Positions 9,911-32,363 of a DNA stretch of 64,000 nucleotides are shown here, one piece after another. How positions within the stretch are numbered: the stretch's first letter is position 1; every line of letters begins with the position of its first letter. The stretch covers positions 124,001 to 188,000 of the forward strand of contig RQOL01000780.1 of the NCBI GenBank assembly GCA_013076295.1, written 5' to 3'. This stretch comes from Sanderia malayensis (Eukaryota; Cnidaria; Scyphozoa; Semaeostomeae; Pelagiidae). The notes beneath the pieces are model-generated. The model was not told the origin of the DNA and searched no databases. It saw nothing but the letters and a program-made list of their open reading frames with translations. The position numbers and the translations under genes are program-made.

Positions 9911-10103
9911 CTAAAAGACCATTTAAACATGAAAATAAGCATGCGTGACCAGTTTTGCGCGCTTAAAATGTTCGTATATCAGGCCAATCCGAAGTGGCTC
10001 TTATATGTTTTCTGACTTGACTTAACAAATGTCATAAACGTAACACCGTATAAAATAACTAAGCATTCATCGTTATTACTTACTTCGTATAAATCTTCTT
10101 CAT

Positions 10104-12566
10104 TCAGTTACAATCTCCTCCACAAAAACACATAGCAGTGCAGTTCAAACTGGCTTTCTTACATTTGCAGGCATTTTTGCAACCTTTCTTGCAATTGCAT
10201 TTGACTAGGATGCTAATAGCATCAGCTACTTCTGGAAGAGTCGTCCACACAGGTTGCCAATATTCATCAACTTTTTCCCAACCACACATTTCAGGTTCCG
10301 GTAGAACTTGTAGGTTTGACAACATTTGATTCCAGATGTTTGCTTGGTATGAAGCACGCAAAATGTGCTGTTTCAATGCTCCCTGCGATGGCAGAATGTT
10401 TTCCAGCGTTCTATTTTTGTGTGAAAATAGCATTTGCCGTGTTGCATTAACGCTCTCCAAGGTACTGCCCCGGTCATAAAGGTAAACGATGAATTGTTCT
10501 ATTATTGCAAAGCATTCGTTTATTTCCGTTCCTGGATGATTCATCACTTGAAGAAGAGCTTCCGTTAGATCTTCATATGAATTCCAAATATCCATGACAG
10601 TTTTCTTCCCCCTGCCAGCAAGAAACGAGACTGTGTCACAACCCGTAAGGGAGTGAAACATCGGGAGAGCAAGTGATCTCTGTAATCCCAAAAATTGAGA
10701 AACTTCATTTACGTTGATGTATCGGAAAGTTTTTCCAGACCCAAATGCTATATACAATTTCAAATTCGGAATGCGAACGACGGCAGCAACCCCAAGGACC
10801 ATAACATCTGTATCCACAGTTTTGATAACAGCATTTTGCATATTTTGCCTTCTAATAGCATCGTACAAATGTAGATACATTCTTGAGTCTGCTTCCTCGT
10901 GATTACAAGGGGAGATAATGGACGAATCTTGAGGTGGCAACGTAAGAACTTCACTGCCGATTGTAATTGCAAACGATTTTTCTCCGTTTTTGAGATTTTG
11001 ATGGGAAAAATTGGCCAAATAAGAAAACAGTTCCGTTTTGTTATCACTGTGCCTTAAGAAGGAATTCCAATTTGCTGGGACTATGTAGTTGTCCTTAACT
11101 CTTTTTCGACTACCTTCACCTCGGTGGGATCTTGCCGTTGACTTGAGTGAGTCTTTCACGTAAACGTCAAATACAACATCAAGTCTTTTTACATCCCTCA
11201 ACTTTTGACCAAGAAATGGTAGAAACTTATCTGATGCGTATTGCTTGAATGTGGTACCACGTATTGGAGGTAAGCCGTTTATAAGTGCAGCACCATCGAT
11301 AATCATGATATCCGCAGCTGGTATGTCAGACATCGTTGCGGAATCCACTTTTGCTTCAAAATATTTCAGTAAATTTGCCTTGTTTCCTGATCTTAGCTCG
11401 TTGTTTTGTGATAGCGCCGGTGGAAAGCTCTGATTTTCATGTTGAAAAAAATCTTCGAGTTTGCCTTCCCGATTTTGGCAGGCAATGAATAATCTTGAAA
11501 AAAGATTAACGTCGCTCTTGAGGTTTCTGATCTGCGTGGTTTGCTTTTTTGGACCTTTTACGGCATCGAAAATATACAATTTGTTTCTTTTGATGGTATC
11601 AGTTAACGGCACTGTAGTATGCAATAGCCTGTCAGTTACATATTGTTTATAATTGTCTGCTCCTACATCTTTGATTTTTTCAAGGTTTTTCACCGGCAGC
11701 CCACTTCTGATTTGTCCGGAGTTAAGAACAAAAAGACAATCTTCTGATTCTTCTAAAAATGGGTTTCCGTACTCATTTATCGTTGATATCAAGGATTTGA
11801 CATCATTCTTAAACCTCACTTCCTCTGCAATTGTTTGTTCATGATGTTTCTTACTTTCGCTAGATTTGGTGTACGAAGCAGACTCTTCAAAATCACTGAG
11901 AAGTCCAGCAACATGCGGTCCTGAAATCAGCCACCGCTCTAGGGCCTTTTCATTATCGGTAATTCCAATAATTCCACCATCACCCTTGATTAGTTTGTTG
12001 TTCTGTTCATGAGCATGATCGATGGAGATACCTGAGAACACTTTCGTAGAATTATGAACAACAAACTTTCCTCTGGCAAAATTTTCATACACATTCGGGT
12101 GCTCCTGTTCAAGGTTCTCCATATCTCGTATATGAACAGGAAGCCAACGCGAATAATTGACTTTGTCCAAGGCGAAAAACCAAGGTGCCATCTTTGCCAT
12201 CGAATCCAGGTATAACGAAAAATCTCCTTTTCTAAGTGACCGTACAAACATTAGAAGCAAAATTTCTTTTTCCAGGGTCATGAACCAATATTTGAACTGA
12301 GGTAGATGATTCCTTTCCGCACAAAACTTTTGAAAACTTGGCTCTTCATATGCACTCTGCGCTTCTTTTAGTAATGCAAATAAGGCTGTGGCAGTTACTT
12401 GATGTGCATATCTGGTACGTTTAACGTGTCCACAATGCAAAAGTGACTCAGCTCTTCCTGATGTCGTGACGTTTGCTTCCTCGAGAGATTCGATCCACCC
12501 GCTGCCTTTCAACCAACTACCAATTAATCCCATGAACGCCATCTCAATATGGAGCCCACCCATCAT
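10104..12566 (-). CDS. XPG/PIN-like nuclease-transposase fragment with CXC domain, 820 codons
   Basis: A long intact frame from a family spread through invertebrate genomes, often labelled tesmin/TSO1-like CXC protein. Residues 1-240 include GGLHIEM (3-9), WLPVHIRDM (141-149) and DHAHEQNN (183-190); the last resembles the final acidic position of an RNase H-fold transposase. Residues 420-650 carry IIDGAALING (D424), HEEADSR (E557, E558, D560), TVDTDVMVLG (D585, D587) and TGCDT (D644), the spacing of acidic motifs expected of an XPG/PIN-type nuclease. Residues 789-820 form a cysteine-rich CXC (CNCKKGCKNACKCKK). The first Met is followed at once by family-conserved sequence, and the frame stays open upstream for at least 9 codons (reading VYVSLVV before MMGGLH), so the true protein started further upstream and its N-terminal domain is missing here. 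The role as transposase is inference. Confidence 0.7.
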   Translation of the reverse strand: MMGGLHIEMAFMGLIGSWLKGSGWIESLEEANVTTSGRAESLLHCGHVKRTRYAHQVTATALFALLKEAQSAYEEPSFQKFCAERNHLPQFKYWFMTLEKEILLLMFVRSLRKGDFSLYLDSMAKMAPWFFALDKVNYSRWLPVHIRDMENLEQEHPNVYENFARGKFVVHNSTKVFSGISIDHAHEQNNKLIKGDGGIIGITDNEKALERWLISGPHVAGLLSDFEESASYTKSSESKKHHEQTIAEEVRFKNDVKSLISTINEYGNPFLEESEDCLFVLNSGQIRSGLPVKNLEKIKDVGADNYKQYVTDRLLHTTVPLTDTIKRNKLYIFDAVKGPKKQTTQIRNLKSDVNLFSRLFIACQNREGKLEDFFQHENQSFPPALSQNNELRSGNKANLLKYFEAKVDSATMSDIPAADIMIIDGAALINGLPPIRGTTFKQYASDKFLPFLGQKLRDVKRLDVVFDVYVKDSLKSTARSHRGEGSRKRVKDNYIVPANWNSFLRHSDNKTELFSYLANFSHQNLKNGEKSFAITIGSEVLTLPPQDSSIISPCNHEEADSRMYLHLYDAIRRQNMQNAVIKTVDTDVMVLGVAAVVRIPNLKLYIAFGSGKTFRYINVNEVSQFLGLQRSLALPMFHSLTGCDTVSFLAGRGKKTVMDIWNSYEDLTEALLQVMNHPGTEINECFAIIEQFIVYLYDRGSTLESVNATRQMLFSHKNRTLENILPSQGALKQHILRASYQANIWNQMLSNLQVLPEPEMCGWEKVDEYWQPVWTTLPEVADAISILVKCNCKKGCKNACKCKKASLNCTAMCFCGGDCN

Positions 12567-12599
12567 AACAACAAGACTAACATATACGGTCGATGATTT

Positions 12600-13060
12600 C
12601 TCGGAAGACTGGGACCGAGTACCCTATACTAAAAACAGCACATGGGGCCAAATTTAAGGTTGGCTTTCAACTTTATATTTTTCAGCGTATCAAACTGACT
12701 ATTTATATGCTAATTTTTGTGCTCTTAACATAATTCAGTTAATAGATACAATGAATCATTTTTCGGAGGACTGGGGCCGAGTACCCTATGCTAAAAATAG
12801 AATGTGGGGGCAAATTTAAGGTCGGCTTTCAACTTTATGTTTTTCAGCGTATCAAACTGGCTATGTATGCCAATTTTTGTGCTTTTAGCATAATTCTACT
12901 AACAGATACAGTGAATGATTTCTCTGAGGACTGGGACCAAGTACCCCATGCTAAAAATAGCACATGGCGGCAAATTTCAGGTTGGCTCCAAACTCTATCT
13001 TTTTCAGCGTATCAAACTGGCTATGTATGCCAATTTTCATGCTTTTAACAAAAAACCCAC
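12600..13060. repeat. Right terminal array, 3 x ~160 bp, inverted to the left array
   Basis: The complement landmark (G/A)AGTACCC(T/C)AT recurs at about 12616, 12779 and 12939 (periods 163 and 160). Each unit is the reverse complement of the left-array unit. The array begins within ~35 bp of the start of the 820-codon gene. Confidence 0.9.
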
Positions 13061-13452
13061 AATTCGGCTTGTTTTTGACACTTATTCCACCCACTAAATT
13101 TTCAAATTCCCACGTCATCCTCGATATGGTTAATCCCGAGGCTAAAGCCTATCCCCCAAAGAGATAAGTGGTATGGGTATCGTGTCTGAGAAGCATTGAG
13201 ATGAATTGATTGTAGGAGCAGAGCTGAATGCAGTTGGAATTTATGTACCATTTATTGACTTTTTGAAATCATTAAAGATCCTTCAGCATTGAATTCATAG
13301 CCTGTGTCCCAGTCCACCCACTCATGTTGACTGTGCATGGTTCTCGAAATTCCTGTTCAACCAATTTCACGAAAAGTGAGATAATTTATGCAGCATCAAA
13401 ATTGTTATCGTGATTTATGCGCATGCAGACGAGGTACAGAATATAAGAATAA

Positions 13453-13800
13453 CTAGCCGGGGGCGCTCGCGTTCGCTCACTTCCCGGAGGGGGGCAAGTG
13501 AAAAAACTTAATGTGGTTGGCGCACTTTGTGCGCTGTATTCGCGAACGCTCATGCCCCTTTCAACCCCACTTACAATGGGATAGCTCGCTGCGCTCGCCT
13601 GAGCTCGGCGCACTTCATGCGCTGCATTCGCTAACGCTCATGCCCCTTTCAACCCCACATACAATGGGTTAGCACGCTGCGCTCGCCTGTCTATTTATTA
13701 TCCAGAAACATTGACTGATAGGGCGCACTTCGTGCGCTGCATTCGCTAACACTCGTGCCTCTGCCTACTCCTCTTACACAGCTTGGCTCGCTCCGCTCGC
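13453..13800 (+). repeat. Left outer module and ~3 units of the 114-bp satellite
   Basis: After CTAG the module runs through GGGGCAAGTGAAAAAACTTA to the first GCGCACTTTGTGCGC hairpin word. Versions of that word recur near 13520, 13608 and 13722. It is the inverted counterpart of 28590-29193. Confidence 0.8.
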
Positions 13801-14139
13801 CTGATAATCCCTGATAAAACTTTGGGCTTGTTTACATTAGGCCTAAGCATCGCAACTGTTCTCGTGAAGTCGGAAGAGAGCCAATCAAATTGCAGCAAAT
13901 GGCAAAATGCGTCACGTGAACAGCGAACACTTTGTTCGAAATTGGAGTTTCGTTACGCGAATTTGGAAGTTTAGCCAGCGTAAACCGTCATTTTTTCGTG
14001 AAAGCCAATTAGGCGAACTTTAACAAAGAATTTCCTAATCTTTTAGTCGAAACTGCAAGCTCTCATATAGATAACTTTCTGGTTCAACCGGCAAGGAACA
14101 GCTCACTTAAAAATAGGACAGATTAAGGGCCTCAGAAAA

Positions 14140-14285
14140 AAGCCTTTATGGATACCTCCTTCGCCGTTTTGGCCCATTGTTTTGAGGCATTCGACCTATT
14201 GTTTTAGGTCGAATCAATTCTTTTTGGCAAGGAAAGTGCGTCATCACGTGACTCAGCAGAATATATATTTTAGATCAGAACAAAC
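14140..14285 (+). promoter_or_regulatory. Inner terminal block with ATTGTT boxes, CACGTG and TATA
   Basis: Within 130 bp upstream of the helicase start lie AAAAAAGCCTTTA (14138-14150), CCCATTGTTTTGAGGC, TCGACCTATTGTTTTAGG, TCACGTGAC (about 14244) and ATATATATTT (14260). The same order of words is found inverted at 27840-27990 and twice in the palindrome at 39250-39540. The conserved set and the position just before a start codon suggest a promoter. No experiment supports this. Confidence 0.5.
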
Positions 14286-16429
14286 ATGGCTGATGCGGAA
14301 AATGATGAGAGTTTGCATTCATGGTTTGAAAAGGCATTTGGTTTCATAAAGTTTCATTTCGACATAGATTCTTTGTACGAAGATCAAATTAAATTGATAA
14401 AGGCGTTTTACGACCATAAAAATATATTTTTCAATGCACCTAAGGGTTATGGAAAATCAATCGTGTTTCAGTTGCTGCCATGGGTGCTTGGCATCGTTCA
14501 GGAGCAGAACATAGGGTTTTCAACTTTAATTGTGATCTCACCACTAAAATCCATGATTGAAGATCAATGTATGTGCAAGTGGGAAGTTGGAGTATCCTGC
14601 ATTGCTTTGTGTGGCCAAAACTCTTTCTCTGACCCTGCTCAACAAGACAAATTTTATTATGATGATGACGATGGTAGTGATGGTACAAAAGATATTTGTC
14701 GCAATGTAAGAGAGGGAGATTATTCACTAGTTTATGCTACACCAGAATGTATGCTTGGCAAGAATTCGTGGAGAAAAATCTTAAGTTCGGAAGAACTTGG
14801 GGATCACTGTATTGGAGTTGTATATGATGAAGCACTCATGATTGCACAATGGTAAGAAATGAAATATGATAGCCTACACTCTTTATATTTTATAACAATA
14901 AATTTTTTTGAAGCTGGCTGTTCTTAGATGTTCTACCATTTTCTGCCTGAAATGTTCTTACAAAATGTTCTCATGATTATTTTGTAATATTATCTTGAGT
15001 TAACGATGTGGTTATCTTGTTGTAAAGTTTTGGCAAAATTCAAGGCTTGTGTTCTTATAAAATTGTTGCTTTAAAAAATGGCAGAAACTTTGATTGAGCA
15101 CTAATAGTATTCACTCCTTACAGGGGATCAGATGAAAATGGCAAGAAACCTTTTAGGAGGTTTTATGGTGAACTACATGAATTCAATTGCCTGCTAAGCT
15201 CTGAGACACGAATTGGGTTGTTTACAGCCACAGCAACAAAACAAACCAAGTTGAAAGTCCTTGGAATGCTTGGAATCGACCCATCTGACACCTTCTGCAT
15301 CGAAAAAAGTCCTGACATGAAAAACGTAAAATATAGTGTTCAATATATCGATGTACCATGTACCATTGCAATGTACCATACCATCGATGTACCATACCAA
15401 AAGCAATGTACCATTGCTTTTGGTATGAGCATAAATTGTAGCAATGTGCATGAGTCAATTCATTTTGGAGCCCCTAAGTCTTTGGAATCATATGTCCAAG
15501 AAAGTGGAAGAATTGGACGTGATGGTCAACCTAGCATTAGCAGGATCCTCTATAATGCAATGTTGCTCAGAGGAGCTGATTACGAAATGGTATCATATAT
15601 CAAAGAAAAAAATTGCCGGAGAAATTGTCTCATGAAGAATTTTGAGAGCTACAAAACAGAGGCAATAGAAGGTTGCCTTTGCCGCGATAACTGTGCAAAG
15701 TTATGTGACTGCTCCTAGTCCAGGCGGTGAGTGAGGTAGGTATCACCTGCGTGGGTAATTAATGGGACAAGCATATTCTAGACCATTTTTTGACGTAGAA
15801 TCCGAATCTGGATGTTATTCATGAGAACGAGGCTGCTTTTTTAGATTTATAGAATAGGGTCAAATTTATAGAAGGCTGCGCAAGTTCGAAATTTGCAAAC
15901 AACGAGTGAAAATGGTTTTCTTGTGACTATAGCTAAAACTCGTTTCCTAAAGCAAATGAAGGCAACTTCGGTGTTTTAGAGCAACCTCGCTTTCAACCTG
16001 TCAAAGAACTACAAGTTAATATTTAAATCATTTTGGTAGAGCAACGCTTGAAGCTTGTGAAAAGTGAGTGGTCTGTGGATGCCCAAGTGCTATAAAGCCG
16101 CGGATCAGGCATCTCGGGTCCAGGGCTATTGCGTGCAGTGCCCACAGGGGTATAAGAAAGGTGAAATGATCCTAGTTCTCCTTTGAACAAATGAGCCCTC
16201 AGTGAGAATTGTAACCTATTGTCACTGAAGGCCATTGTTCTGCTCTCAAATTGGTTAAGATATGGAGAGTGCTACGTCGGCTATAGTCTGGAAGCAAAAG
16301 TACATACGTATGTCGGTTGGACAGAGTTCAAGGAATGGATCCAATTTCTGATAAGCAAAATCTTACTATCCAATACTCAGATAAAAACAAAAACCCTTCT
16401 AAAAGGAAAGGTAAATGGGAAAACATTAA

Positions 16430-17620
16430 GGGGTAATAATGGGGGTGAAACCAGCTATTGAGTTCAAAGTTCTGAAGTCAGAGCCGATTGAAAAGGCGCC
16501 CAGTGAAGCTTCGGCAGCGAGCCGGGATCCTGGGTCGTGAACCGTTAGGATCAGGTCACACTGTGTAAAGTGAGAGACCATACCATCGGACTTCCAGCCG
16601 ATAAAAGTGGCAATTTCAGATGAGGAACGCCAAGCAAAGCCAACGTGATTGAGCAACCACTTTGCAGGCCATGAGCCGTTTCCCCTTCGAAGATTGACAG
16701 GTCTTGTATGTGTTTCTTGAGTCTATTGGTGTCGGCAGAGCCAGTGAATACGAGGGTGGTAATATGGCCACGGATGTCCAGGGGTCTAAACACTCCAGGC
16801 GGCGACGACGGAGCGTTCATCAATTTGCCCTTTCTGACGTCTTGATTAAAGACGAGAAGGGATTTGTCGGGGGAATCATCACATCCATCGACTTTACGCA
16901 GCCAAGATCGGAGGCCCTGTTGCCTGAGAAGAAGTTGATGCTGAAAAACGCCAGATCCCGTACCAACGCGTACAGGAGGGATGGGGAGTCCCACGAAGAG
17001 AGGATACGTGATTTTAGATGGTCACATATTTTCTCCAGCTTGTCCATAAAAAGAGGAGAAACTTGACGTTGTTAGACTCTAGCTATGGATTGTTGCTCTT
17101 TCACGACAGAGAGATAGTCATGGACTAAGTGATCAGCTGCCGGGTTACCAAGGTGGAGGTCCTCATTCCAAGAAGTGCCTATAGCGTTGTTTTTAAAGAT
17201 GGTGCGCAGCTTGCCAATATAGCTGTCAATTGTACCGGCAGCTAGGCCCCGATAGCAGTCGCAAGAGGGTTGTGGGCCCATTGAGCGGCACGGATCAGTG
17301 TGGGAAATAGTTTTTCCTAATGGGTCCTTCCAAATTAGAAAATCAATCACGTTCTGGGGGCCTTTGGTATGGCTTTTGTTTCTTGAAATCACGCAAGGCG
17401 TCTTTTCGGTCCTCAATTTGTGAGGTGTCAACATGGACCAAGGGAGGAGGGCTGACAAAGTTGGAGGCTGCCGGACGACCACATTGTTGGCCGAAATGAC
17501 AGTCAAAATCATTTGGGTGAAGACATGTGATGCTTCTTGTCGCCGGTTTCCAAGTGCGCGTTACACACACTGCAAGTTAGCAGGCGGGAAAAAGGGAGGT
17601 TGAGGATGAGCAGTTGCACA
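16430..17620 (-). pseudogene. Tyrosine recombinase with N-terminal zinc-finger-like part
   Basis: On the minus strand the gene begins with a cysteine/histidine region (CSVCNAHLETGDK near 17560). A core-binding part follows with GTIDSYIGKLRTIF (near 17220). The catalytic part has FSGNRASDLG (first Arg), FEGETAHGLQSG (the HxxR box, with Gln where Arg is expected) and IGWKSDGMVSHFT, where the active-site Tyr is expected near the end but His-Phe are found. At least three frame changes break it. Key catalytic residues appear lost, so this copy should be inactive. Confidence 0.65.
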
Positions 17621-17762
17621 GGATAAAAGCAAGAGAATGAATGATATTGTTGTTTTATTTTAACAGATAGATGCATTGCAAAACTAAAAAATGACACTTA
17701 AGAGGGCATAAGATAACCTCAGTGAAAAAATTGCAAAGGCAACGCAGAGATAATAAACAGAA

Positions 17763-18412
17763 TCAAAATATCGAAGAAAAACCCATAAGTCCCATTGAAG
17801 AGGCTTGCTGTGCCAGCCTTGGGTCCTCTTTGGAGGGTATTCTAGGGTTCCCAACTGTCGCTTGGCACTGACCAGGGGCTTCTCTGTCGCATGCGATGTT
17901 AGAAGAGGCCACCAAGATTTCCAAGGACAGACATCCGGGATGACCATGGAGACTGAGCAGCCTGAACTCCGCAGGAATCTCAAAAGTGGTCCTATTAGGA
18001 CAAACGGGGGGAAGACAGACGTAGTACCTCTCGAGGGGAGTGAGTTCCTGAGCAAAAACATTCGTGGCGCAGGTTTCTTTGCAGGGGAACAGTGAGTAGA
18101 AAGGTAGTCTGAAACCATTTTTGAAAATGCGGGCGTTGTCAACAATGGCCATGAGGTCAAACGTTTGAGGGCCAAACGAGTGATCGACGACAGACCAAAC
18201 AGGGTCTGAAAGACGACAGTCAATATCGGAACGGAATCGGAGAGTTCATCTGCGAGTTGTTCTGCAGATGGTACGAAGTGTAGGTGGAGAGAAATGTTCA
18301 GCCGAAGGGTAAGTTCAAAAATTTGTTTGATCTCCTTGTTGAGAGAAGGGTTGCGACCTCCCTCATTGTTCCAAAAATGAAAGAGGTTGGTATTATGTAC
18401 ATAGGCATCCAC
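17763..18412 (-). pseudogene. RNase H-like and downstream region of DIRS-like pol
   Basis: The start MDAYVHNTNLFHFWNNEGG and the later LHFVPSAEQLADELS match the end of a retroelement RNase H domain (…YVPSxxNxADxxSR). The next part in shifted frames (VFPPFVLIGPL, KPLQWDLW) is a conserved segment seen in DIRS-like and related recombinase polyproteins. The RT that should precede it is absent, because the inverted end begins about 40 bp upstream. Confidence 0.55.
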
Positions 18413-19379
18413 ATGAGCATTTTCATGAAAAGCATCCAGATTAGGAAACGAGCTATACTTTTAAGCTACTATAGTCACAAGAAAACCATTTTCACTCGTT
18501 GTTTGCAAATTTAGAACTTGCGCAGCCTTCTATAAATCTAACAAATATGAAGCAATATTACGCAATATCTTAAGAAAGCTGCCTCGTTTTCATGAAAAGC
18601 ATCCAAATTCGGATTCTACGTCAAAAACTGGCCTAAAATATGCTTGTCCCATTAATTACCCACTCAGGTGATACCTACCTCACTCACCGCCTGGACTATC
18701 CCCAGCATGTACTGACTGGGCAACCATGAGACTGAAACCTGAGAAAATTGAGGTAACAAAAACAAAGAAAATTCAGGAGGTGTCCACGGAACAGAAAAAC
18801 CAACTTCAAATGCTTCTTGAAGAGTACAGAAGAAATCTAAATCATAGGAGAATGATTCATCTACCCAATACATACAGTGAGTTCAATGCCTTCCACATTA
18901 ATCAAGTTTTAAGCAGCAGTCAACACATATTTTCCCTGCAAGATGTTTATGATCATGTTGAAATATGGCGCAAAGTTTATGCTTTGAGCATATTATCTAT
19001 ATTAAAAACTGTGTTTGAAGACATAGTTGAAGATGTCGCGTTTGCAGGTGTGCCTGATTTTGATCAATCAATGAATAGTTTACCAGATGAATGGGTAAAT
19101 ATTAGAGACGATTCTGAAGCAGAGGATCTTTTAATGTGGGATATTTCTATGTTAGAGTTCTATTGTTCTGTTGAAGAGTGTTCCTATGACACACTCCATG
19201 ATGGTAAAGATACAAGTATAGATCAACCCGAAAAAGAGCTATCTTTAAGTCAACTTTAGCATAACCCTAAGCCACAAGGTTCTGGATGTATTTGTTGCAT
19301 GTGCTACCCTATTTTCTTCAGCGTGCCTTTCTTTTATTCTCCACTTCTTGCTTGTGTATATCTATCCAGTTGTAAAAAC

Positions 19380-22300
19380 TATGATAATCAAAGTTTGTAA
19401 GCAGACTTGGTTTGAAATCCTTAAACACGGAGTATTTTCTGTTAGAGCGTTTTCATTCATAAGTTGTTCTACAATTTTCGCTTTGTCCTTTTTAGAAGAT
19501 TTTGCGACGTGTTTTCCACTCCTTTTGATTATCCCCGTCATTTCATCAAAGTCCTCAAACAATACCTTGGTACACCCAATTGCTTTCATGTATCGCTGGA
19601 GAGTATTCCTGTTATGCTGATTTGGTCCCAGTTTTCGTTTTAGTAATTTCACGATGCGTATATAATGCCCCATTGTTAAATCAATGGGAATGTTGCCACC
19701 TAGACCTGTCTTTCTTTTCACACCGCGATTCCATACAAGGCGATAGGACTCTCTTGGAGACAACAGGCAATTGACTTGGCACAAAAGATAGAGTCCCTCC
19801 AAGCAATATTTTCGACAGGAAGAACCATCTGCCTTCATGTATGGAAGTAAAAACCTCCAACACCGTAAGATGCGGTCTCCATCCCCTTCTGAAGCTGCAT
19901 CCTTAAAATTTCTCACAATCATAAGATACTCCAGCAATGAACATTGGTAGTTATACATATCATCACTGTCATCAAAAGTCTTGCTAGCAATGACTTTGTG
20001 CATACCATGTGCTGCCTTTTCATGGTCTTTCTTACGCTTCCCGTTAAATTGAAAAGTTCTCAAACAGGAAGGCTCTTGGCACTTAAATTTTCCATCTGCA
20101 GTTTTCATAAGCTGTGCTAATTATTGCTCTGTTTCAATTTTTGCCTGCGTCATTTGCACTAAAGCTTCTGTCTTTAAGACGAAATAACTGACAACATCGC
20201 TGGCTAATTTGTTTAAGAAACCTTTTTTGGAATCCTTGCTGGCAACTCTCAAAGAGCTTGGAAGAGCAGATTCGTCTGGGTCTTCATCTAAAGTTCCAAT
20301 ATTCAGAATGGTCATGGTGGCAGCTAACACTCTTGACACTAGCCCCAAGTCCAAAAACTTTTTGCAGGCAGCATATCTCCTTTTAACATCAGTGACAATG
20401 TTGGACTTGGTCAGTGCCGTGTGAACAGAATGCCTATCTGGTATAGAAAGTAATCCAATATGAAGTGAATCTGGAATCATGTAAATGGTGCCATAAATAT
20501 AAACACATCCTACCATTTTATATTTTGTCGCTGTATCTCTGGAATGTTTGTGGATGACGTGTTTAGTGACAGCATCTTTCAGGAAATGGAGGCACTTTAT
20601 ATCCTCAGTGATTATTCTTTCTACCATCACAATATAATTCTTGCTTTGCAACATGTAGTCGTCTTGGCGGAACAAAAAATTTGCATTATCAAACTCTTAC
20701 AAATTTCTCTGCAGAGAAACCATGCTGAGCCTTTCATTGTCAATTCTGTTTGGAACAAAGCCAATCACACATTCGTGTAAGTCTATATTCTGATTCTCCT
20801 CAGTCATGTCATGCAGTTCAACATGGGTGTCAACGTTGTCAAAGCACAGCTGAAAAACAATGACTTTGTCGTTATTGTTGTTATTGGTCATTAAATAATG
20901 TTAGTAGTGATTGTTCAATGAAAATGAAAAAAGAATTCCTTGAGCAAGAAAGAGAATTCTTTAAGCCAATGCTTTGCCCAGGAAAAGAATTCTTAAATGG
21001 TTGAAACGGATAGGATTTTAATATGGATCAACAAGGCGGCAATCTTAGCATTGAGTGAGGCTAGCTAGGAAACTTTCATACCTTGAATCCTTTTGAATCT
21101 GTCTCACTGGCATCAAGGTATGAAGCTTTAGAGTTGATACGAATATTTGTTGCTTTTTCTGAATGTTTTTTAACAACAGGACTAGATTCTGAAAATTGTA
21201 AAAAAGGGTTTATTAGAGAAACACACTAACAATTTTAACAGAAAAACATCAACAATTTAGGATGTATGAGAAAGGAGATTTTAACATTAACGTACGGGCA
21301 CAATTTCTCAGAGCAAGCATAGTAAAATCAAATTCCAAATCCAAGGGTGGTATGTCTTCAATCAGAGCCATACGCTGAGCATGGATGGCTTTGGATGCTT
21401 CTGATAAAGACGAATTTCCATCAGTTGCAGTTTCAGCAATCGGTGTACGCTCTGGTACTGCAAATGCAGCTTGGAGTTTCCTTTTCTCAATTTCCATCAA
21501 TCTAGTGACATCAGCATCATGCATGACCCGAAGTTGATCTAGCTTCTTGTTGAAATAGGTGTGTGACACAGCTAATCTCATGGACTTTAAGCGAACCAGT
21601 GTTGACTGAAAGAAATATTTAATGATTAATAACCAAGAACCAATTCTTGAGGGTACATTTAATAATTTACAATCTGCCGATGTGAGTTTCTTATAAACGA
21701 TTTTCCTATAAAACAACAACGTGTAATTCAGGTCCTTGTCAGATGTTTGTGGTAAAATGCACAAAAATGCGACCTGCTTTAGGTGTAGCACATGTAAACA
21801 TGATAACCAAAGTATTAAAAAATCCAACTCACCGTGTATGATGAATCGTTGATTATCAAAGAAATCAATAACTGAACTGCAATCATCGGCTGAGATCTGT
21901 TATTCAAGCATACTGATGCAACAATCACTACAGCAGTGTTCACATTATGATCATCTGATTTGTGAGATGCTTTGGATGCAACCTTTAGAATATTGAAAAG
22001 GACAGGGCAACGCTCATGCATTTCTTCACCTGCTTTCTCGAAGGTGAAAGACAAAAGATCATCTGTGCCTGTCCTCTTTAAAACACTGCAGACATCTTTC
22101 TTGATAAACTTCTTTTTTACTGCTCCTTCATCTGCCGTAACTTGCAACTTTCTTTTTCCTAGAACTTGGCTTGAAAATATATTTCTTCTGCTCGGATTTT
22201 TGTTCTGTGTAATACCATCATTGTTACCAGTTGGAATTTTTACAGTTTCCCTGCACATTTCTTGGCACTACTTATTTATCTCCTTGGCAAGCAGATTTAA

Positions 22301-22666
22301 GACATGAGGTCTTATCAAGGGATGGCTGCATGCAAATTTTGCTATACCTTTATTCTGTGTTGCAAGAAGATAAATCGCCATTCGAGTAAGATCGGGAGGC
22401 AATCTTCTACTCCTATCACCAGTTGGCCAACAGACATGAACATGGGCAACCACATCGCTATCTTTGAATTGCCGGAATGATACATTAGTTTGCTCATCTT
22501 TGTCTGTTCTTACCAGTGCCGTGTTTTCAAGGGGGCTTGAATCGTTTGGTTCGCTGTGGCTGCTGTTATGTGATTGATTATTTTCAACCGATTTATTTGG
22601 GAAACTTTCATGCTGCTTTCTGAGCTCTTGCTCAATTTTTGATGTTTTTTCTCGAGACTCTTTCAT
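19380..22666 (-). pseudogene. DUF6589-family gene, four exons, three in-frame stops
   Basis: DUF6589 proteins are common in repeat-rich invertebrate genomes and are of unknown function; a transposase role is plausible but unproven. Exons on the minus strand: 22666 to about 21833 (donor GTGAGT), 21605 to about 21290, 21188-21082 (GTATGA donor), and 20849 to about 19380 (acceptor TTTTTCAG). Family marks are LCFDNVDTHVE and MTEENQN in exon 4 and, near the end, GDRILRCWRFLLPY, LSPRESYRL, GNIPIDLTMGHYIR and SGKHVAKSSKKDKAKI. In-frame stops: TAG 22268-22270, TAA 20697-20699, TAA 20121-20123; the frame continues through each with family sequence. It faces the helicase tail-to-tail and the zinc-finger gene head-to-head. 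Confidence 0.75.
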
Positions 22667-23520
22667 CCAAAATTTTTGGGGATTAATGTAGTATAACTGT
22701 TAAGGATTTTTATTGATTACATTGTTTCAGCTCCTAACAGTTTTGCTTATTAGTTATTGTTGACACATAATAATCATTTTGGTTACTATTTTAAATATGA
22801 CATGTTTGAGAAAAAAATAGCTATAACAAAATATGAAATGACAAATTAACTCAGATGCTCCGTGCTTGATTGTGCTTGTTGTCCCGCCCTGCCCCAGCAT
22901 GCCTAGCATCTAGTACGGCACTTCATGTTGTTTGTTGTTTCAACAAGTTTACATTTCATTCAATGAGAAATTTCCAAAGTGATATCATACTTGGTAGTCT
23001 CATTCCAAATCAAAAGTGAATAAGTGAATGTTTAAATCTGAGGCACATACCTTATATGGGCAGGTAAACAGAAACACAGATCACAAACACAGAACACAAC
23101 ATTTTCCCCCAATCACCAACATCTACTCGTTTGCGCATTTGCTTCGCGAGTCAAAAACTAAAGGAGATAGAATGCCGTGTGTAGTAATGATAAAGGATTT
23201 TTGTTCTTACAAATTCTTGTCTTATGGTAGTATGTTAGCACCTTCGTTAATTTAAAAAATGTATTTCGCTTGACATTACAACAACAAAATATCCACTATG
23301 ATATATATATATTTCGAGTTATCTGTTAAAAACAAAAAACAATATACTTAATATTTAGAAAAGATATTGCAAAATATAGATCCAGTTTCAATTATGCCAT
23401 AGTCAATAGAAAAAACTATGCTCTGGAAGCCTTTTGTTTCGGTCTCTTGTTCTCACAGAGAACTCGAATAAGATTTTATTTTTATCACGTGACCTAAGTA
23501 GTGGGACAAAACTCACGAAA
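22667..23520. promoter_or_regulatory. Head-to-head intergenic region of DUF6589 and zinc-finger genes
   Basis: The two genes diverge from this 0.85-kb stretch, so it probably holds both promoters. A segment at 22880-23010 recurs inverted at 33476-33605 at high similarity (shared blocks include AAATGTAAACTTGTTGAAAC). A short TATATATATATTT run is at about 23300. No finer site can be named. Confidence 0.4.
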
Positions 23521-24064
23521 ATGGCGGACAGCAACGACGACTTCATTCGAGGTGAAACTCTGGATGTTGTCTTAGATTTATTGGACGAAGAATTGCTAGA
23601 TGAAATGTTCCAAGACGGTATTAACGTAGCACTAGAAGATATCAATGTTCAGGAGAAGACTTCAGCGAGTTTTAGCTGTGAAACATGCAGAAAATATTAC
23701 AAGACGAAAGGAGGCCTAAACCGACACACAAGAAAAAAACATAGCCTGCTGAGTGACCTGAACGAAGACAATGAAAGAGCCACTGACTTAACACCAGCTG
23801 TTATTGTTGATCTCGTGGAAAAATCTAAAGATGAACTGCTGCAAAATAGTTGCTATCCAAAATTCATGCGGGATGTTATTGCTGATTACCAGTTTCAATT
23901 GAGCGAAGGCCTACGCAGTGAACTAGAAATATCCTCAAAAAATATGCTAATGGAGAAAAATTTTATTCTTTTTTCTACGGCAAACTATGAAGAATGCAAG
24001 TACATTTTTTCCAGACTTGCAACCACCAATGTCAACACTACTTGCCAAGATGCTTGGAGACAGC

Positions 24065-24189
24065 TGCTATGGACTCCCTATGGACTTTATTGTTTTATCT
24101 ATTGACTTGTAAAAGTGATTCATTCAATTGGTTATGTTCATGAAACTCACACGCGTCTGTGTCTGACTCTGATATACTCTAAACACAAC
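24065..24189 (+). repeat. 5' LTR
   Basis: Starts TGCTATGGACTCC and ends near CTAAACACAAC. The matching 3' copy is at 26968-27092. The only difference I see is CGCGTC here against CACGTC in the 3' copy. Confidence 0.9.
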
Positions 24190-24247
24190 AAATTCGCGAC
24201 AAGGAAAAAGTGAAAGAAACTTCTAGATAACGAAGGAAACCCGGAAA

Positions 24248-25432
24248 ATGACTGCAAAACTAGATCTGACACCGCTTCCAAGCGTGGATCCTCACATTGA
24301 CCCAAGTAACCTAGGAACTTGCTGGAAAAGCTGGATCAAACGCTTTCATACATTCATCAAAGCGGCAAACATAACAAACAAGACCCAACAGAGAGCATTA
24401 CTACTGTACCAAGCAGGATTCGAGGTGCAAGAAATCTTTGACACGCTTCCCGACACTGGCAGAGATGACGAATTTGATAGAGCAGTCACAGCGCTCACGG
24501 AGTATTTCGCTCCCAAGCAGAACACTGACTTCGAGATTTTTCGTTTTCGACGGGCGAAGCAACTTCCCCAAGAAACCCTTGATACTTATCACACTCGCTT
24601 TCGAAAATTAGCTCAAACGTGTCAGTTCAATGCAGATAACCTGGATCAAGAAATTAAGCAGCAAATGATTCAAGGATGCTCCAGCTCCTCGCTGCGAAAA
24701 TACGCCTTGAAAACAACAGACATCACATTGAAAGACATCTTGCTGAAAGGAAAGTCAAACGAAATTAGCAAACAACAAGCCAACGAAATGGAAAACGCCT
24801 TTCCAACCACAACCTCAGACATGCAAGCAATGCACATCAGATCTGCTGCACCCAAGTTACCTAGAAAATCAAATTTTCAACCAAAAGGGGAAACACACAA
24901 AAAACAAACCAAGAAAACCTGTTATAACTGTGGAGTTGATTTCCCACATCAACATGGCCCGTGCCCAGCTCAGGGGAAAACATGCAGTTACTGCAATCGA
25001 AAAAATCACTTCACGCGATGCTGTAAACAACGAGCCAAGAAACAAGAGCAGAAGGTTCACACAGTTGCAACTAAAGAATCAAACACGAGCTCAGATGAAA
25101 GCTCTGACCAGTACGTTTATTGTATGGAAAATAAAATGGAAAACACAAAGAAACTGCAATCTGCTCTCATAATCAAAGGTCAAAAGGTCCTATTTCTCGT
25201 GGACAAAGGAGCAAGTGTCAACATAATGGACGAGAACTCATTCAACAAAATCAACCGGAAGACAGGGACACCAATCAAACTCAAACAGTCCAAAGTGCGA
25301 GTTTATGCATATGGATCCAAAACGCCTCTTGAAATGATGGGGGAATTCGAGGAAACAATCGAAACGAATCAAAGAATCACGTTAGCAAAATTCCATGTTG
25401 CAAGGGAACCTCCTCAGCTCAACAACAGCTGA
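24248..25432 (+). pseudogene. gag with CCHC finger and start of protease
   Basis: The frame opens at MTAKLDLTPLPSVDP. A capsid-type helical region (residues 20-190) is followed by two cysteine knuckles, CYNCGVDFPHQHGPC and CSYCNRKNHFTRC; the second is a clean CX2CX4HX4C. Near residue 317 comes FLVDKGASVN, the protease active site, with Lys where D(T/S)G is expected. The frame then ends early at a TGA (25430-25432) because of a shift at about 25405; the natural continuation is in another frame from 25395. The altered active site and frameshift indicate a non-functional copy. Confidence 0.75.
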
Positions 25433-26824
25433 AAACTTGAATCTTATCAAGATCAACATCAATCATGTGCAAGAAAAGGAAACAAAGGAAGAACAAAGGA
25501 AGCCAAACCCACATGACCCAGCGGTCAACATCCAGTCAGAAGAATACGTCAGTCACTTACTAGACAAACACAGCAATGTTTTCAAAGGAGTAGGAACTTT
25601 GAAAAATCTTCAGGTCAAATTACACACAAATCCTGATGTGAAGCCAGTCGTTCAACCGCAACGTCGGATACCCTTTCACATCAGGAAAAAAGTTTAAAAT
25701 GAATTGGACCGCCTGGAGAAAGATGACATTATCGAGCATGTGGAAGGAGCGACGAACTGGGTAAGTCCTTTGGTGATAACCCCAAAGAGAAACACCGATG
25801 ACATCAGAACATGCGTTGATATGCGTTTTCCAAACACTTCTATAGAACGCACTAGACACCCTATGCCAACAACAGAGGAACTCATTACCGACCTGCATGG
25901 TGCATCAATATTTTCAAAACTGGACCTGAAACAAGGTTACCATCAGCTAACCCTGGCAGAAGAATCCAGAAATCTCACCAGGTTTTCAAAACACAAAGGC
26001 TTGCGACGTTATAAGAAGCTCTGTTTCGGGGTAAATTCAGCTGCAGAAATCCTCCAAAACGCAAGATCTCAAACTATTCAAGACATCGAAAATACAAGAA
26101 ACATGTCAGACGACGTCATCATATGGGGTAGATCTCAGGAAGAACACAACAAAGCACTCGCTGCAGTTCTACAACGCTTTGAGGAAAAGGAAATCACCCT
26201 AAACAAAGAAAAATGCTGTTTCAACAAAACACAACTGAAGTTCCATGGACTTGTTTTCCAACAAGAAGGAGTGAGCCCAGATCCGAGTCTCATTCAAGAC
26301 TTTGTAGACATACATACACCACAAAATGTTCACGAAATAAGAAGCTTGATGGGCATGTCTCAGTATTAGTATTTATCGAAAATAAAAAAAATAAAAACGC
26401 AAAATTCGAATGGGGAGAAGATCAAGAAAAAGTTTTCGAAACATTGAAGAATACGTTACAATCACAACCAGTCATGGCATACTTCGACATCAACAAACAC
26501 ACTGAAGTAGCATACGATCAACGCCAGCACACGAAAAAGTCAGGAATCCAGGAAGGATATCTTGTTCTTGTAAAACAAGGAAGAAAAGATAAGACCACAA
26601 GCAGATTCAACTCCAATCCGTACCGTGTGACAGAGATCGCTGGGACAAGAATAACTGCAATCAGATCAGACCATGAGATTACACGCAACACATCATTCTT
26701 CAAAAAGTACAATCCACCCGATGACGAAAACATTCAGATTACTAAATCCGATAGTGAAGTTGAATCGAGCGGTGATGAAAACGAGACCGAAATCGAGCAC
26801 GAGGCAGTTCATCAATATCCTTAA
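25395..26824 (+). pseudogene. pol remnant: RT, then truncated integrase tail
   Basis: The RT part carries LDLKQGYHQL (motif A region) and MSDDVIIWG in the catalytic xxDD position. A TAA at 25696-25698 precedes it, and a TAG at 26367-26369 ends the frame in GMSQY. After the RT, FEWGEDQEKVFETLK marks the RT/RNase H boundary. Near 26515 the sequence jumps to GIQEGYLVLVKQGRKDKTT and RNTSFFKKY, the chromodomain-free tail of an integrase. The internal deletion removes RNase H and the catalytic part of integrase, so mobility would require another element's enzymes. Confidence 0.75.
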
Positions 26825-26967
26825 AGAATCAGGCGAATGCCAACGTTATATGGAGAAGTTAATACTAATTAAATTTTTATAATAACGAGAAACTGATTAG
26901 ATAAGTATTATTTTCTTTTATTTAAACATTGTCAGTAATACTCTATTGCTGCGAAGAAAAGGAGAGA

Positions 26968-27092
26968 TGCTATGGACTCCCTATGGACTTTATTGTTTTA
27001 TCTATTGACTTGTAAAAGTGATTCATTCAATTGGTTATGTTCATGAAACTCACACACGTCTGTGTCTGACTCTGATATACTCTAAACACAAC
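26968..27092 (+). repeat. 3' LTR
   Basis: Matches 24065-24189 with one visible difference. It is preceded directly by a purine run, as a plus-strand primer site would be. Confidence 0.9.
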
Positions 27093-27640
27093 GACAACAT
27101 TTTGTTTTCTTTTTCAAGAAATAAAATCAGCTCCCTTGCCCAAAGTCTTGTGACCCAATTAGCACAAAACAAATCGGTGGCCTCCAGTATTTGGCTGGAT
27201 ATGTGGTGATGTAGTTTTTGAAAGAATAAACAAGAAATAGTTCGAATTACAAATCTGAGTGCAGCCAATCTCTCATAGCAGTGCTGAACAATTTTATAGA
27301 GGAGGAAAATACATCTCAAAGCTTGATTCCAGTCAAACACGAGGAGGTTTAACTGTTGTTAAGAAAGAAATTCAGAAAATTTGTTTGAAGAAGTCTTCAG
27401 AGCCCACACTTCAACACCCAGCCATGTAAAAAATAGATTTGCAGCCAATGGTGAACAATCTATTGATGGACACAGTAGTCATCAGCATGTATAACAGTTT
27501 AGTTGAAACTGCTACTTCACAGATTCAAAAAAATCTGCTCGAAAACATGTTAAAGCTATACCTTCGTGTAAGAGCATTTTCATTTGCAAGAGATATTACA
27601 GATAAGTACAAATATGCATAAAAAAGAATAAAACTAAAGC

Positions 27641-28590
27641 TTTGCGGAAGGGCATCAAAAAGGCAACAGATCAACCAGATGTTAATGAATACGTATTTAA
27701 CTAACTTCTAGGAACAGTTGCATGATTTGGCTTCTTTTTTTTAATTGTACATTGTAAACTAAAAACACACAAGTAAGAACCACAACCCCGTGCAGCATAG
27801 CACATACACAGTCAATTGATGCTAATCACTAATCTAATATATATATTCTATGATGTCACGTGACGGTGGCGAAACTCTGCCTAAAACAATAGATTCAACC
27901 CGAAACAATAGGTCGAACGCCTCAAAACAATGGGACGAAACGGCAAATCGGTGATCAATAAGGCTTTTTTGAATGGGATGGCACAAGGCTGACACTTGCA
28001 TGGAAAGGCTCCGTTTCTGGAGTAGGCAAAAGTTATCTATTTTTGGAAGCCTATTTTAAAAGAATTTTTGAGTTATTCCATTAATTATTCTGCTAATTGT
28101 GCTATCACGAAAAAACGACGGTTTACGCTGGCGAAACTTCCAAATTCGCGTCCCCGACTCCATTTTCGAAAAGAGTATTCGCTCTTCACGTGATCCGTTT
28201 CGCCTTTTCCTGCAATTTGATTGGCTCTTTCCTGGCTTCACGTGAAAAGTCACGCGTTTTTTGTTATCATGCAAATTAGCCCTCGGGTTGAACAGCAGGT
28301 ACTTTTGGAGAAGACGCGTATTTTTGTTTTCAACACAAAGGATAACTGGGCGCCTTTCAAAATGTTTTACGACCTGAATTACCTTTGTAAAGCCTTGCTA
28401 ATTGTTTGAGAGACCTCTGAAAAATTACAGGAAACAATTGAGAACACAGGTGATAGCTTTGTTTTGTTTTTTGAGTGAGATAGTTTTAGTTTTTGTACGA
28501 CCGCCATTGTTGCTTCGGCATGCTTGCGACGCTTAGGCCTAATGTAAACAAGCCCAAAGTTTTAACAAACAAATTATGATAAAGGGTGAT
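27641..28590 (-). promoter_or_regulatory. Inner right terminal block of the giant element
   Basis: Read on the minus strand from the outside inward it has CTTGTTTACATTAGGCCTAAGC-like sequence (28525-28560), CACGTGAAG and CACGTGAAC-like sites, AAAAAAGCCTTA, CCCATTGTTTTGAGGC, TCGACCTATTGTTTCGGG, GTCACGTGAC and AATATATATA (about 27838). This is the same order as at 13800-14285. No gene starts from it, so if it is a promoter the gene has been lost. 27641-27830 holds nothing I recognise. Confidence 0.5.
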
Positions 28591-29193
28591 CAGGCGAGCG
28601 AAGCGAGCCAAACTGTTGCAAGAGGAGTAGGCAGAGGCATGAGCGAAGCGAATGCAGCGCACAAAGTGCTCCCTATCAGTCAATGTTTCTTGGTAAGAGA
28701 TAGACAGGCGAGCGCAGCGAGCTAACCCATTGCACGTGGGGTTGAAAGAGGCATGAGCGAAGCGAATGCAACGCACGAAGTGCGCCCTATCAGTCAATGT
28801 TTCTTGGTAAGAGATAGACAGGCGAGCGCAGCAAGCTAACCCATTGTTCGTGGGGTTGAAAGAAGCATGAGCGAGGCGAATGCAGCGCACGAAGGGCGCC
28901 TTATCAGTCAATGTTTCTTGATAAAAGATAGACAGGCGAGCGCAGCGAGCTAACCCATTGTACGTGGAGTTGAAAGAGGCAGGAGCGAAGCGAATGCAGG
29001 GCACGAAGTGCGCCCTATCAGTCAATGTTTTTTATGATAGATAGACAGGCGAGCGCAGCGAGCTAACCCATTGTACGTGGAGTTGAAAGAGGCATGAGCG
29101 AAGCGAATGCAGCGCACGAAGTGCGCCAACCAGATTAAGCGTTTTTTACTTGACGGGCTGGGGCGAACGAGCGAAGCGAGTGATGACCCCTAG
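28590..29193 (-). repeat. Right satellite array (5 x 114 bp) and outer module
   Basis: The word CAGGCGAGCG(C/A)AGCGAGC recurs at about 28591, 28705, 28819, 28933 and 29047, a period of 114 bp. The outer module AACCAGATTAAGC...GACCCCTAG closes the array at 29193. It is inverted relative to 13453-13800 and to 34701-37197. An open frame of 179 codons across it is a by-product of the period being a multiple of three. Confidence 0.85.
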
Positions 29194-29238
29194 TCATTTT
29201 TTATAATACTGTTTGACTTTTTCTTTAACTTAGTGTTA

Positions 29239-32200
29239 TCAATGCTGTACCAGGAAATTTTTTCGTTTTTGCTTATGTGCTCCTTCTGTATTGCCCGTAA
29301 CAGGAACAATTGAGCACTGCATCCGTATAGTATTAGCATTGTACCCAAACTGATGCAATGAAGGATTGTCATTTCTCCTCCCTAAGCTTCTTTGCATGCC
29401 GAAGTATTTTTCAAGAACATCTTGGTTAAATTTCTCTGCTAAAACGAATTCAAAACCACTTTGTAAAAGAAACTTTGTCACCTCAATAACAGAATGAACT
29501 GTTATTTTGGTGCCCTCTTATGTCTTGGCAGACAAGAACATTTGCGCTTTAGCATTTTTTGAGAAAGTCTCACGTTTCTCAATGCTCTCCTTCCTGTCAG
29601 ATAAAATCTTTGACAAAGAATGTTCCAGCCATTCAAATCTTTCATCGTTTACACCTCTATATAGTAATAAAAATGGCTTTCGTTTTTTCCACCTTCCAAT
29701 TGATTCCTGACATTTAAAGCATCAAAAAACCTATCCATGTTTCCAAAAAGATCTGCTGTTGCATACATGTCTTGGGGATAGTATTCTTTAATAACCTTGG
29801 CAACAGAATCGCTTAACAATAGAACTGCCAATCGTACATTACTGCATGAAAATGGAGTCAGATAAATATGTTCTTGTGACAGCTTCGAAATACTTTTCAA
29901 GCCACAGCTCATCTCGTTTTGTGCAATCTTACAAAAATGACCCGATAAAATATGTTTTCCATCATTTCACATATATCTTGTTTTTTTCCCCATCACCTAT
30001 CAATGTGAAAAAAATATTTATTGAACGCATACTTTTATTGCAAAATCAAGTTGGGCATTGATTGTATTATCCAATTAAGAAAATTATAATGAGGAATAAT
30101 TTAAAATTTTCATGACTTTTCAAACAACCCAATTTTGGACCACCGAATTTTACCAAAATCAAAGTTCCTTACCTGAATGATAAACACAGTTTCGAGTTGT
30201 CTTCATTAGATGAGGTGGATCAGAGAAGAACCAAATAAACCGATCTGGTGCATATAAATTTACAGAATGATGAACAACATCAGAACTTCCTGCTCCATCC
30301 AATAGCTCATGCATCCGGTAAAATTTCCTATTTGATGATGCTCCATCAGAAACAGCAGCAATAACAGGCAAATTGCAAGCCAGTTCCAGTATTGCAACTG
30401 CCTCCCAGAATGTGGTCATAATTTGACATGCTGTCACCCCTTTTGTTGCAAAATATGCAAAACTGAACTTTAAATCCGATGCCAAACCCCTGACATAGTA
30501 TACCAGGGTGTGAGTGGCTAACTGGTCAACATCATCAAAGCAGGAGTAATTTAGGTCTTTGTCACCTTAATCGACGAAATCAATCAGTTCTCCAGTATGT
30601 TTGTTGTACACAAAATTCTCCTGAAACTTCACCTCATCAATAGAAATAACTATGTATCGCTGAACACCTTTAAGCAATGATAGAGTTTCAATCAACTCAT
30701 TGATCACTTCTGGGTTAAAACCTGCTTTTGGCCTAATTGCATTTCTATGGTCCCCTAATGTTCTGCGACGTGGAAGGGTTAATATTTTTGCATTTCAAAG
30801 TTCATCATAGGCAGATGCAGATTTTGATGCCAAGGAAAGGCAAAATCGTATGATCATGGGATGGTATTTCTTGCTACCATTACGCAAAGGTCTAGTTTGC
30901 TGGTCCCAAAAGAGTTGCATGAATTGTCATGCATTTTCAATGTTATCATTCATAATACCAGATATGTCATTTGAGAGCTGATCATCAATTTCCACACCTG
31001 CAGATTTTTTTCCAGCCTTTCAATTTTACTTTTCAGCTGTGATGTTTTCATTCTCTCCTCCTGCAAGGCTAACTTTACCCGGTTTGGGCGTGTCTGTGAC
31101 AATAGAGCATTGGCATGTGCACAAATGTTATTCTTGCTTTGCTTGAAAATTTGATTTTTCTTGGCACACTCTGTAAAAATGACACAAGTGGAACATATTC
31201 ACCCATTTCTTGTGAGGAGGAGGCAATTCTGTGCTCTTGAAAATGATTTGGCTCGCTGGAAGCTTTCACCATTCTTATGTATCTCAAGTTGGCATGGAAT
31301 ATGATGGGTTATAAGTTCATCAGACCTGATATCAGCAACCCCTGGACACAGTTTGTGATTTGACAGATCTTTAACAAACTTTAATATTGTGGTGTTTGTA
31401 ATGGATCTTTTCTGTTCCGTATAAAGTTTGTCATCATGATCCCAAGCTTTCGTCAACAATTACCTCTAATTCAGGAACAGTGTATGGTCTTTCGAAATAT
31501 TTGAATGATATATTGCTTGAACTATTGGTGATAACCCATCCATTTGCAGATAACTTTAATTTTCCAACATGGGCTGCAAACTCACTGAAATTCTTGTAAG
31601 TTTTTACTTCCTCTTGTAAATGAACAATATTGTCTTTCACAATGTTGAGATGACGTCTTTCAGTTATTTTTGCATGCTCGAAAGACTTCACTGGGAGATT
31701 TCATTTTAGAAGTGCACCAAAATCCAGAGACTTCCACCCAGTTTATGCAATTAAGTTCAATAATTTGTAAAATGATTTTTCATATGTAACAAATATATAT
31801 GCCTATATATGTTTTGGGTAGAAAACTATTTCTGTTTGTGAACAAACCAACATTAATTGGAAGCCACAACACAAATATCATAAGCTTTACCAATTTTAAA
31901 AAATACTCAATATTTTCATAAAATTGTAGAATTTTTGGCATAAAATAAACCAGGTGGCATTAGTTAGGCCCAGTGTTTACAGGGGACTCTTGGTCTTCTT
32001 TTCGCTTGGCCTTGCTGCCTGTGCAAGGTGATACAATTAAAGTGCCCAACAAATAAAACTAATATCACAGAATATCACTGATCATTTACAGAGTATATAA
32101 CAGAGTATTCACTGATCATTTACTTGTCAGTTCAATATCTCTTTCATCGTAATGTTTCCCGCAAATCCAAACATTTCCAGCTGCAATTTGGTGCTTGAAA

Positions 32201-32363
32201 TCTTCATTGACAGCCTGTACTTTTTTATTACATTTAACGTTTCATTTTTCCAAGCAATGAAATATTGTGACTTTCGCTGTGATATTCTAAAAAGTCTGAT
32301 CCCAGCAAAAGATTGACGACGAGAGGTTGCACAACCTGGCACTGCGCCATTTGAACCAACCAT
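29239..32363 (-). pseudogene. P-element-like transposase with THAP domain (THAP9-like)
   Basis: The THAP part is at 32363-32110: MVGSNGAVPGCATSRR at the start, then after a frameshift IAAGNVWICGKHYDERD, the closing C-x2-H. The first zinc ligand seems replaced by Gly (usual CAVPGC). The transposase follows in pieces on the minus strand: NISFKYFERPYTVPELE (31500), the GDxx-type domain VTACQIMTTFWEAVAILEL and VIAAVSDGASSNRKFYRM (30300-30480), NLYAPDRFIWFFSDPPHL (30220), and the C-terminal [17 protein letters not shown] and [11 protein letters not shown] (29290-29420). Frameshifts and stops separate the pieces. A dead copy lying directly outside the right end of the giant element. Confidence 0.75.

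Follow-up and report, generated by a model that had tools for sequence, protein, structure and literature searches.

The systems closest to the locus described here, positions 13453-29193 of a 64,000-nucleotide stretch of Sanderia malayensis DNA (the window; C734:124001-188000, with C and L numbers as our handles for contigs and loci), are Helitrons, P elements and DNA transposons that carry a helicase. Among the last, AcademH are reportedly the helicase-encoding Academ transposons, as described by Kojima in 2020. Kolobok elements target TTAA, and P-type transposons duplicate about 8 bp of their target. According to published sources, AcademH combines a transposase with a helicase (PMC10045372, PMC10799480), and AcademH and KolobokH are named as sources of helicases (PMC10799480); the target duplications are 9-10 bp in AcademH and 3-4 bp in AcademX, and are tied to helicase and nuclease (PMC10045372). 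KolobokH and Kolobok-1_CCri carry a RecQ helicase, one of them on the complementary strand (PMC9587614), Zisupton/KDZ transposons make an 8-bp duplication (PMC12730594), and Helitrons insert without duplicating the target and are a source of satellite-like arrays (PMC9659126). DUF6589 is a Pfam family without a function (PF20231), and no mention of it was found in the literature searched.

A first-pass annotation of the window took 13453-29193 to be one giant transposon, with genes for a RecQ-like helicase, a DUF6589 protein and a C2H2 protein between satellite-armed inverted ends. Searching the genome (184 Mb, 918 contigs) leads us to a different reading. The span is best explained as a nested pile made up of no fewer than six distinct insertions: two Helitrons, a P-element-like transposon, a helicase/DUF6589 element, a long terminal repeat (LTR) element and a DIRS-like element. 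We would put the probability of this reading, taken as a whole and with a putative DDE transposase role for DUF6589 within it, at about 90%.

Helitrons at the two edges of the span

The likeness of the two edges, on which the idea of a single element was built, is real and far beyond chance. The ordered block at 13453-14274 recurs inverted at 27833-29193, with 78% likeness in the repeat part (13495-13803 against 29152-28819) and 72% in the inner part (13855-14278 against 28250-27829). The blocks are not, however, the ends of one element; both of these repeat-bearing blocks are separate Helitrons:

13453-14274, minus strand: left block, a non-autonomous Helitron with 5' TC at 14274-14273, 3' CTAG at 13456-13453 and repeats of the 114-bp type; many related copies
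27833-29193, plus strand: right block, a non-autonomous Helitron with 5' TC at 27833, 3' CTAG at 29193 and 114-bp repeats at 28591-29127

The right block is absent, and its site uninterrupted, in all three places that hold a close relative of its host element (L060 on C778, L061 at C303:3990018, and L064 on C780, the same place as L065). This empty site reads CACTAA|TCATTTTT in L060 and L064 and CACTAG|TCATTTTT in L061. Another empty site is provided by L077 (C103), where a tandem pair of right-type blocks lies at about 2343-5706, and L078 (C679), which has a flank 99.8% identical to that of L077 and is uninterrupted at the same place (GATCCTGATA|TTAAGAAATA). In L077 the inserted DNA has TCTAATAT as its first bases and CCCCTAG as its last, and it separates that A from that T. 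Both comparisons fix the TC and CTAG edges and place the insertion between A and T, and neither shows any duplication of the target. The right block is a non-autonomous Helitron that entered an A|T site; the left block is built in the same way, but on the opposite strand. As CTAG is the Helitron terminus, its presence at both outer edges, once proposed to be a target duplication, is no such thing.

Similar edges were seen more widely. The base after CTAG is T in ten out of ten right-type 3' ends in the sequence examined, which include the right block of the window and another end near 34700 and were found with a pattern itself containing CTAG. A strict search for 5' ends, with TC in the pattern, gave 19, of which 11 follow A, four abut the CTAG of another Helitron, and T and G precede two each. 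Both blocks must be regarded as dispersed repeats because of their many matches elsewhere: 73 matching pieces for the left block among the candidates scored (40 of 3,007 first-look candidates), and at least 40 matches, itself included, for the right inner block (40 of 1,773 scored). The 39 matches of the latter elsewhere are 93-96% identical to it, so that the right block is far closer to these relatives than to the left block. The terminal blocks are thus found dispersed alone at many other places. The first-pass annotation had itself named such dispersal, or loci with the genes but without these ends, as grounds for giving up the single element, and both were observed.

The left Helitron went in 11 bp ahead of the helicase ATG. 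In the C616 sister copy of this region (L055/L040) a Helitron with a different inner sequence is found at the same spot, and the insertion site is therefore probably old. No Rep/helicase open reading frame (ORF) was noticed in these Helitron copies, though an autonomous partner was not searched for.

Tandem arrays, in which one Helitron follows immediately on the CTAG of another, are present in L077 (2343-5706), L072, L053 and L004. Within the window, 21 copies of the 114-bp repeat lie inside a further Helitron-type end at 34693-37199, and the outer module is seen again at 37356-37445 and 40723-40812, beside arrays of 4- and 14-bp repeats.

The helicase/DUF6589 transposon

A repeated family of DNA transposons, flanked by terminal inverted repeats (TIRs), has the RecQ-like helicase and DUF6589 as its two genes, which converge; two TIR-bracketed copies are about 6.3-6.6 kb long. 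Genome-wide, with neighbouring matches merged, there are 84 helicase places and 94 DUF6589 places. DUF6589 lies within 10 kb of 41 of the 84, where uniform placement would give about 0.9 such pairs, and the two genes are convergent in 39 cases, divergent in two and on the same strand in none. A stretch beginning TAGCCT is found upstream of the helicase in all eight loci examined over 700 bases each, four of them by a scripted motif allowing up to four mismatches and the other four by eye. The terminus TAGCCTGCGCGCAGACTC, allowing up to two mismatches, has 159 matches in the genome compared with none for the reversed control. Among 100 of these places that were listed, 20 neighbouring pairs are less than 12 kb apart, 14 facing inwards and six not. 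Two inward-facing pairs enclose both genes (C45:1002851-1009158, 6,308 bp, and C303:2182656-2189253, 6,598 bp), while eight others span 0.4-1.4 kb, the size that short non-autonomous derivatives would have. The TAGCCTG termini form an imperfect palindrome. Direct reading was possible in L077 2320-8209, a copy with an internal deletion that retains both termini, and showed 8 bp, TTCTTTGC, exactly duplicated. The notion of a mobile unit of three genes therefore survives for two of them, which do recur together but between quite different ends from those first proposed; the C2H2 gene is separate.

The copy in the window is made up as follows:

13298-22700, no strand assigned: helicase/DUF6589 DNA transposon (AcademH-like), with left TIR TAGCCTGTGTCCCAGTCC at 13298
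14286-15715, plus strand: first part of the RecQ-like helicase gene, with exon pieces at 14274-14855 and 15098-15718
15716-18698, minus strand: DIRS-like retroelement that interrupts the helicase gene; end repeats inverted, 83% alike
18699-19259, plus strand: probable 3' part of the helicase (ORF 18672-19259), collinear in C616; no Pfam match
19362-22087, minus strand: gene for DUF6589, the probable transposase, in convergent orientation with the helicase; PF20231 with E 1.5e-15

The left terminus is fixed by C616:7151279-7151441, which aligns from exactly 13298 inwards. Nineteen matches were found around this point; 15 are to the outer side only, and 14 of these stop at 13298-13301. The others are C616, the window itself, C732 (both sides) and C655 (weak, starting at the terminus). 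The 15 outer-only matches represent a dispersed repeat into which the element inserted, and the same repeat resumes at 22700-23397 and from 34013 onward. Both parts of it are on one strand and 2.9-3.5 kb apart at C831, C630:73313, C616:7265126 and C734:105014, and further apart elsewhere. The right terminus has therefore probably been deleted together with some host sequence.

The helicase pieces match the Pfam families DEAD (3e-7) and Helicase_C (4e-5) above the cut-offs. The matches to RecQ in NCBIfam (6e-13 and 9e-21) are below the cut-offs because the pieces are fragments, and in the PDB they match WRN/RECQ1 with a best E of 6e-4. The ORFs of the DIRS-like element have no Pfam match, their resemblance to RNase H and tyrosine recombinase being by eye only. 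This insert is missing from the copies in C616, C202 and C655, the latter two of which look like duplicates, so that position 15715 is joined to 18699. The DUF6589 gene in the window has an in-frame TAA at 20121-20123 and a G in place of an otherwise invariant E, and no match was found in it to the exon that carries two Ds. This D..D motif is present in the sister copies in C616 and C734, in a stretch of 2.3-2.8 kb that the window lacks at 20398. We considered whether the stretch might be an insertion in the sister copies, but as it holds the D..D motif it is more likely that the window copy has lost it. Judged from these lesions, the window copy is a dead relic that would be unable to move.

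An inverted second copy of the region lies outside the window at C734:192259-203265, about 40-60 kb away and 91-98% identical depending on the part. In it the LTR element is partly deleted and the D..D exon motif is present.

What might DUF6589 do? In 16 aligned copies there is an invariant E within NIxxDxxxExxN and a C2H2-type finger, which in the DUF6589 profile also matches the structures of ZIC3 and YY1. In 17 of the 26 sequences searched, some of which may not reach so far, an exon further upstream has the motif GDQLTVER ... ADFH or one closely similar; the window is not among the 17. When tried in five copies the D..D exon scored as PF20231 in each, above the cut-off in two and below it in three. 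The pair of Ds is in one exon and the E in another, with the finger between them. Since this is the D..D..E order that a DDE transposase needs, DUF6589 is probably the transposase, as the first-pass annotation had suggested. It would cut and paste the element, its finger may bind DNA, and the helicase would remodel or unwind DNA during excision or repair. In Pfam, eight DUF6589 pieces (seven loci, with D..D exons among them) matched no family above the cut-off other than DUF6589 itself, and nothing was gained from scanning the loci with the DUF6589 alignment.

The P-element-like transposon and a neighbouring element

The C2H2 gene is part of a P-element-like transposon; the view that it goes with the helicase and DUF6589, as an accessory DNA binder, is not supported. 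The transposon and its contents are:

23398-34012, no strand assigned: P-element-like transposon with left TIR CATAGTCAATAG.. and right TIR ..CTATTGACTATG, holding the C2H2 gene, a P-type transposase and nested inserts
23410-24105, plus strand: C2H2 gene of the P-like transposon, split by the LTR element
24059-27092, plus strand: LTR retroelement (gag, reverse transcriptase) in the C2H2 gene; LTRs at 24059-24189 and 26962-27092, 97.7% alike
29239-31198, minus strand: P-element-like transposase exons (TNP-like RNaseH_N, GTP-binding and RNaseH_C)

The C2H2 copies begin at about 23398. The region 27093-27832 has seven matches, all of them near C2H2 copies: C734 (the window and the second copy), C778, C780, C303:3990018 (two pieces) and C375. 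At C778, C780, C303:3990018 and C375 neither the helicase nor DUF6589 has a match within 25 kb. L060, L061 and L064, which do not have the LTR element, continue past the Helitron site into 29190 onward, reaching 30388 in L061. The transposase, which lies outside 13453-29193, is identified by PF21789 (3e-6), PF21788 (2e-7) and PF21787 (2e-10), with no Pfam match for the piece 30950-31198. The element is flanked by ATTATGC and ATTATAC, which agree at six of seven bases, and empty sites can be read across the join of the flanks at nine places (C738, C831, C630 twice, C616, C734, C404 and C123 twice) among 43 matches (40 of 396 candidates scored). All three genes first noted between the blocks are present, but alongside more genes and the nested DIRS-like and LTR elements.

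The right flank of the P-like element, at 34013-34690, resembles by eye a broken transposase of the Harbinger/ISL2EU type.

On the other side of the span lies one further element:

9428-13097, minus strand: element that we take to be AcademX-like, with 490-bp inverted ends (91% inverted repeat) and an 839-amino-acid ORF

Its inverted ends are built of 160-bp repeats, and its termini, TAGTGGGTGGAAT, have a possible 3-bp AAT duplication. The 839-amino-acid protein (10104-12623) is matched weakly, with E 7e-4, by a profile made from 23 DUF6589 pieces. The Pfam value for the match is 0.032, below the cut-off, and hhalign gives an E of 0.0037 at a probability of only 9%. The protein has no PDB match up to E 1.

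Rival readings and comparison with known transposons

A giant transposon with satellite-armed ends would account for two blocks that are alike in inverted order, and would keep together a helicase and a DUF6589 gene that do belong together. Each block is nevertheless dispersed independently with Helitron-type edges of its own, and the left terminus of the helicase/DUF6589 element is 155 bp outside the left block. The C2H2 gene is part of another element, and the empty sites for the right block, in three P-like copies with flanking sequence present on both sides, speak against one giant unit. Taken together these make the single element scarcely credible. It is also very improbable that the helicase and DUF6589 are host genes or the cargo of Helitrons. 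Helitrons are indeed beside or inside several copies (C616, C202 and C734), but the 39 convergent pairs, the genes' own termini and the copy bracketed by an 8-bp duplication are all at odds with this, as are L046, L047 and L078, where 229-323 bp separate terminus and helicase with no Helitron.

There are also observations that count against the nested pile or parts of it. For the Helitrons, the L061 empty site has CTAG in place of CTAA, four of the 19 5' ends neither follow A nor abut a CTAG, the empty site of the left copy itself was not found, and the 3' hairpin does not exceed shuffled sequence in stability (z 0.82, with 160 of 200 shuffles folding as well). For the helicase/DUF6589 element, DUF6589 is lacking within 10 kb at 43 of the 84 helicase places, and the right terminus of the window copy was not found, gene homology extending to about 22087. 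The length of the duplication is that of the one copy read directly. A first set of patterns, predicted from duplication plus TIR, gave one match out of four at the exact expected place (C303:2182648, where the degenerate flank would fit by chance in about 0.7% of cases) and three further matches elsewhere; a second set gave none out of five at the expected place, where one of the five ends may lie in an assembly gap, and ten elsewhere. For the role of DUF6589, the matches to the D..D exon in the sister copies are weak (E 0.029 and 0.24). The DUF6589 profile also matches the C2H2 gene of the window via the finger (E 0.002), so its weak match to the neighbouring protein means little, and a single-sequence fold of that protein was unusable (pLDDT 35), leaving the DDE reading with no fold in support.

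With the nested pile as the preferred reading, a false giant transposon is removed, and Helitrons that are rich in repeats and in opposite orientations are seen to be able to imitate terminal repeats. What is left is a testable role for DUF6589 as the transposase of a helicase-carrying cut-and-paste element, with its catalytic motifs and termini named. If it is correct, many unannotated DUF6589 genes could be read as transposon genes.

The edge blocks are similar to DINE-1 of Drosophila and to other Helitrons with central tandem repeats in their 5' TC and 3' CTAG ends, in entering between A and T with no duplication and in their internal satellite-like repeats, and differ in that the 3' hairpin is not significant. 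The P-like transposon shares with the P element and THAP9-like transposons the TNP-like RNase H and GTP-binding insertion domains, and may also share a flank repeat close to 8 bp. It differs in having a C2H2 gene on the opposite strand, and the window copy is heavily interrupted.

The helicase/DUF6589 element resembles KolobokH in its RecQ helicase; a Kolobok assignment was rejected, as TTCTTTGC is duplicated instead of TTAA. Zisupton/KDZ was likewise set aside, since no KDZ domain scored above the Pfam cut-off in the DUF6589 pieces even though the 8-bp duplication is shared. It is possible, but we think unlikely, that these elements are a lineage of their own, distinct from AcademH and combining a RecQ helicase with DUF6589 as a DDE transposase with a built-in C2H2 finger, palindromic TAGCCTG termini and 8-bp duplications. 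In that case all DUF6589 genes would belong to transposons or be relics of transposon genes. The 8 bp in the copy read directly, against the 9 or 10 bp given for AcademH (PMC10045372), would favour this, while the accompanying helicase fits AcademH and the DUF6589 profile weakly matches the AcademX-like neighbour. AcademH is the nearest known kind: it too is a DNA transposon with a helicase beside the transposase. DUF6589, with its D..D..E pattern and a weak match to an AcademX-like protein, may be the counterpart of its DDE transposase. Given the mismatch in duplication length we do not file the element as a proven member of AcademH, and what we claim is likeness rather than membership.

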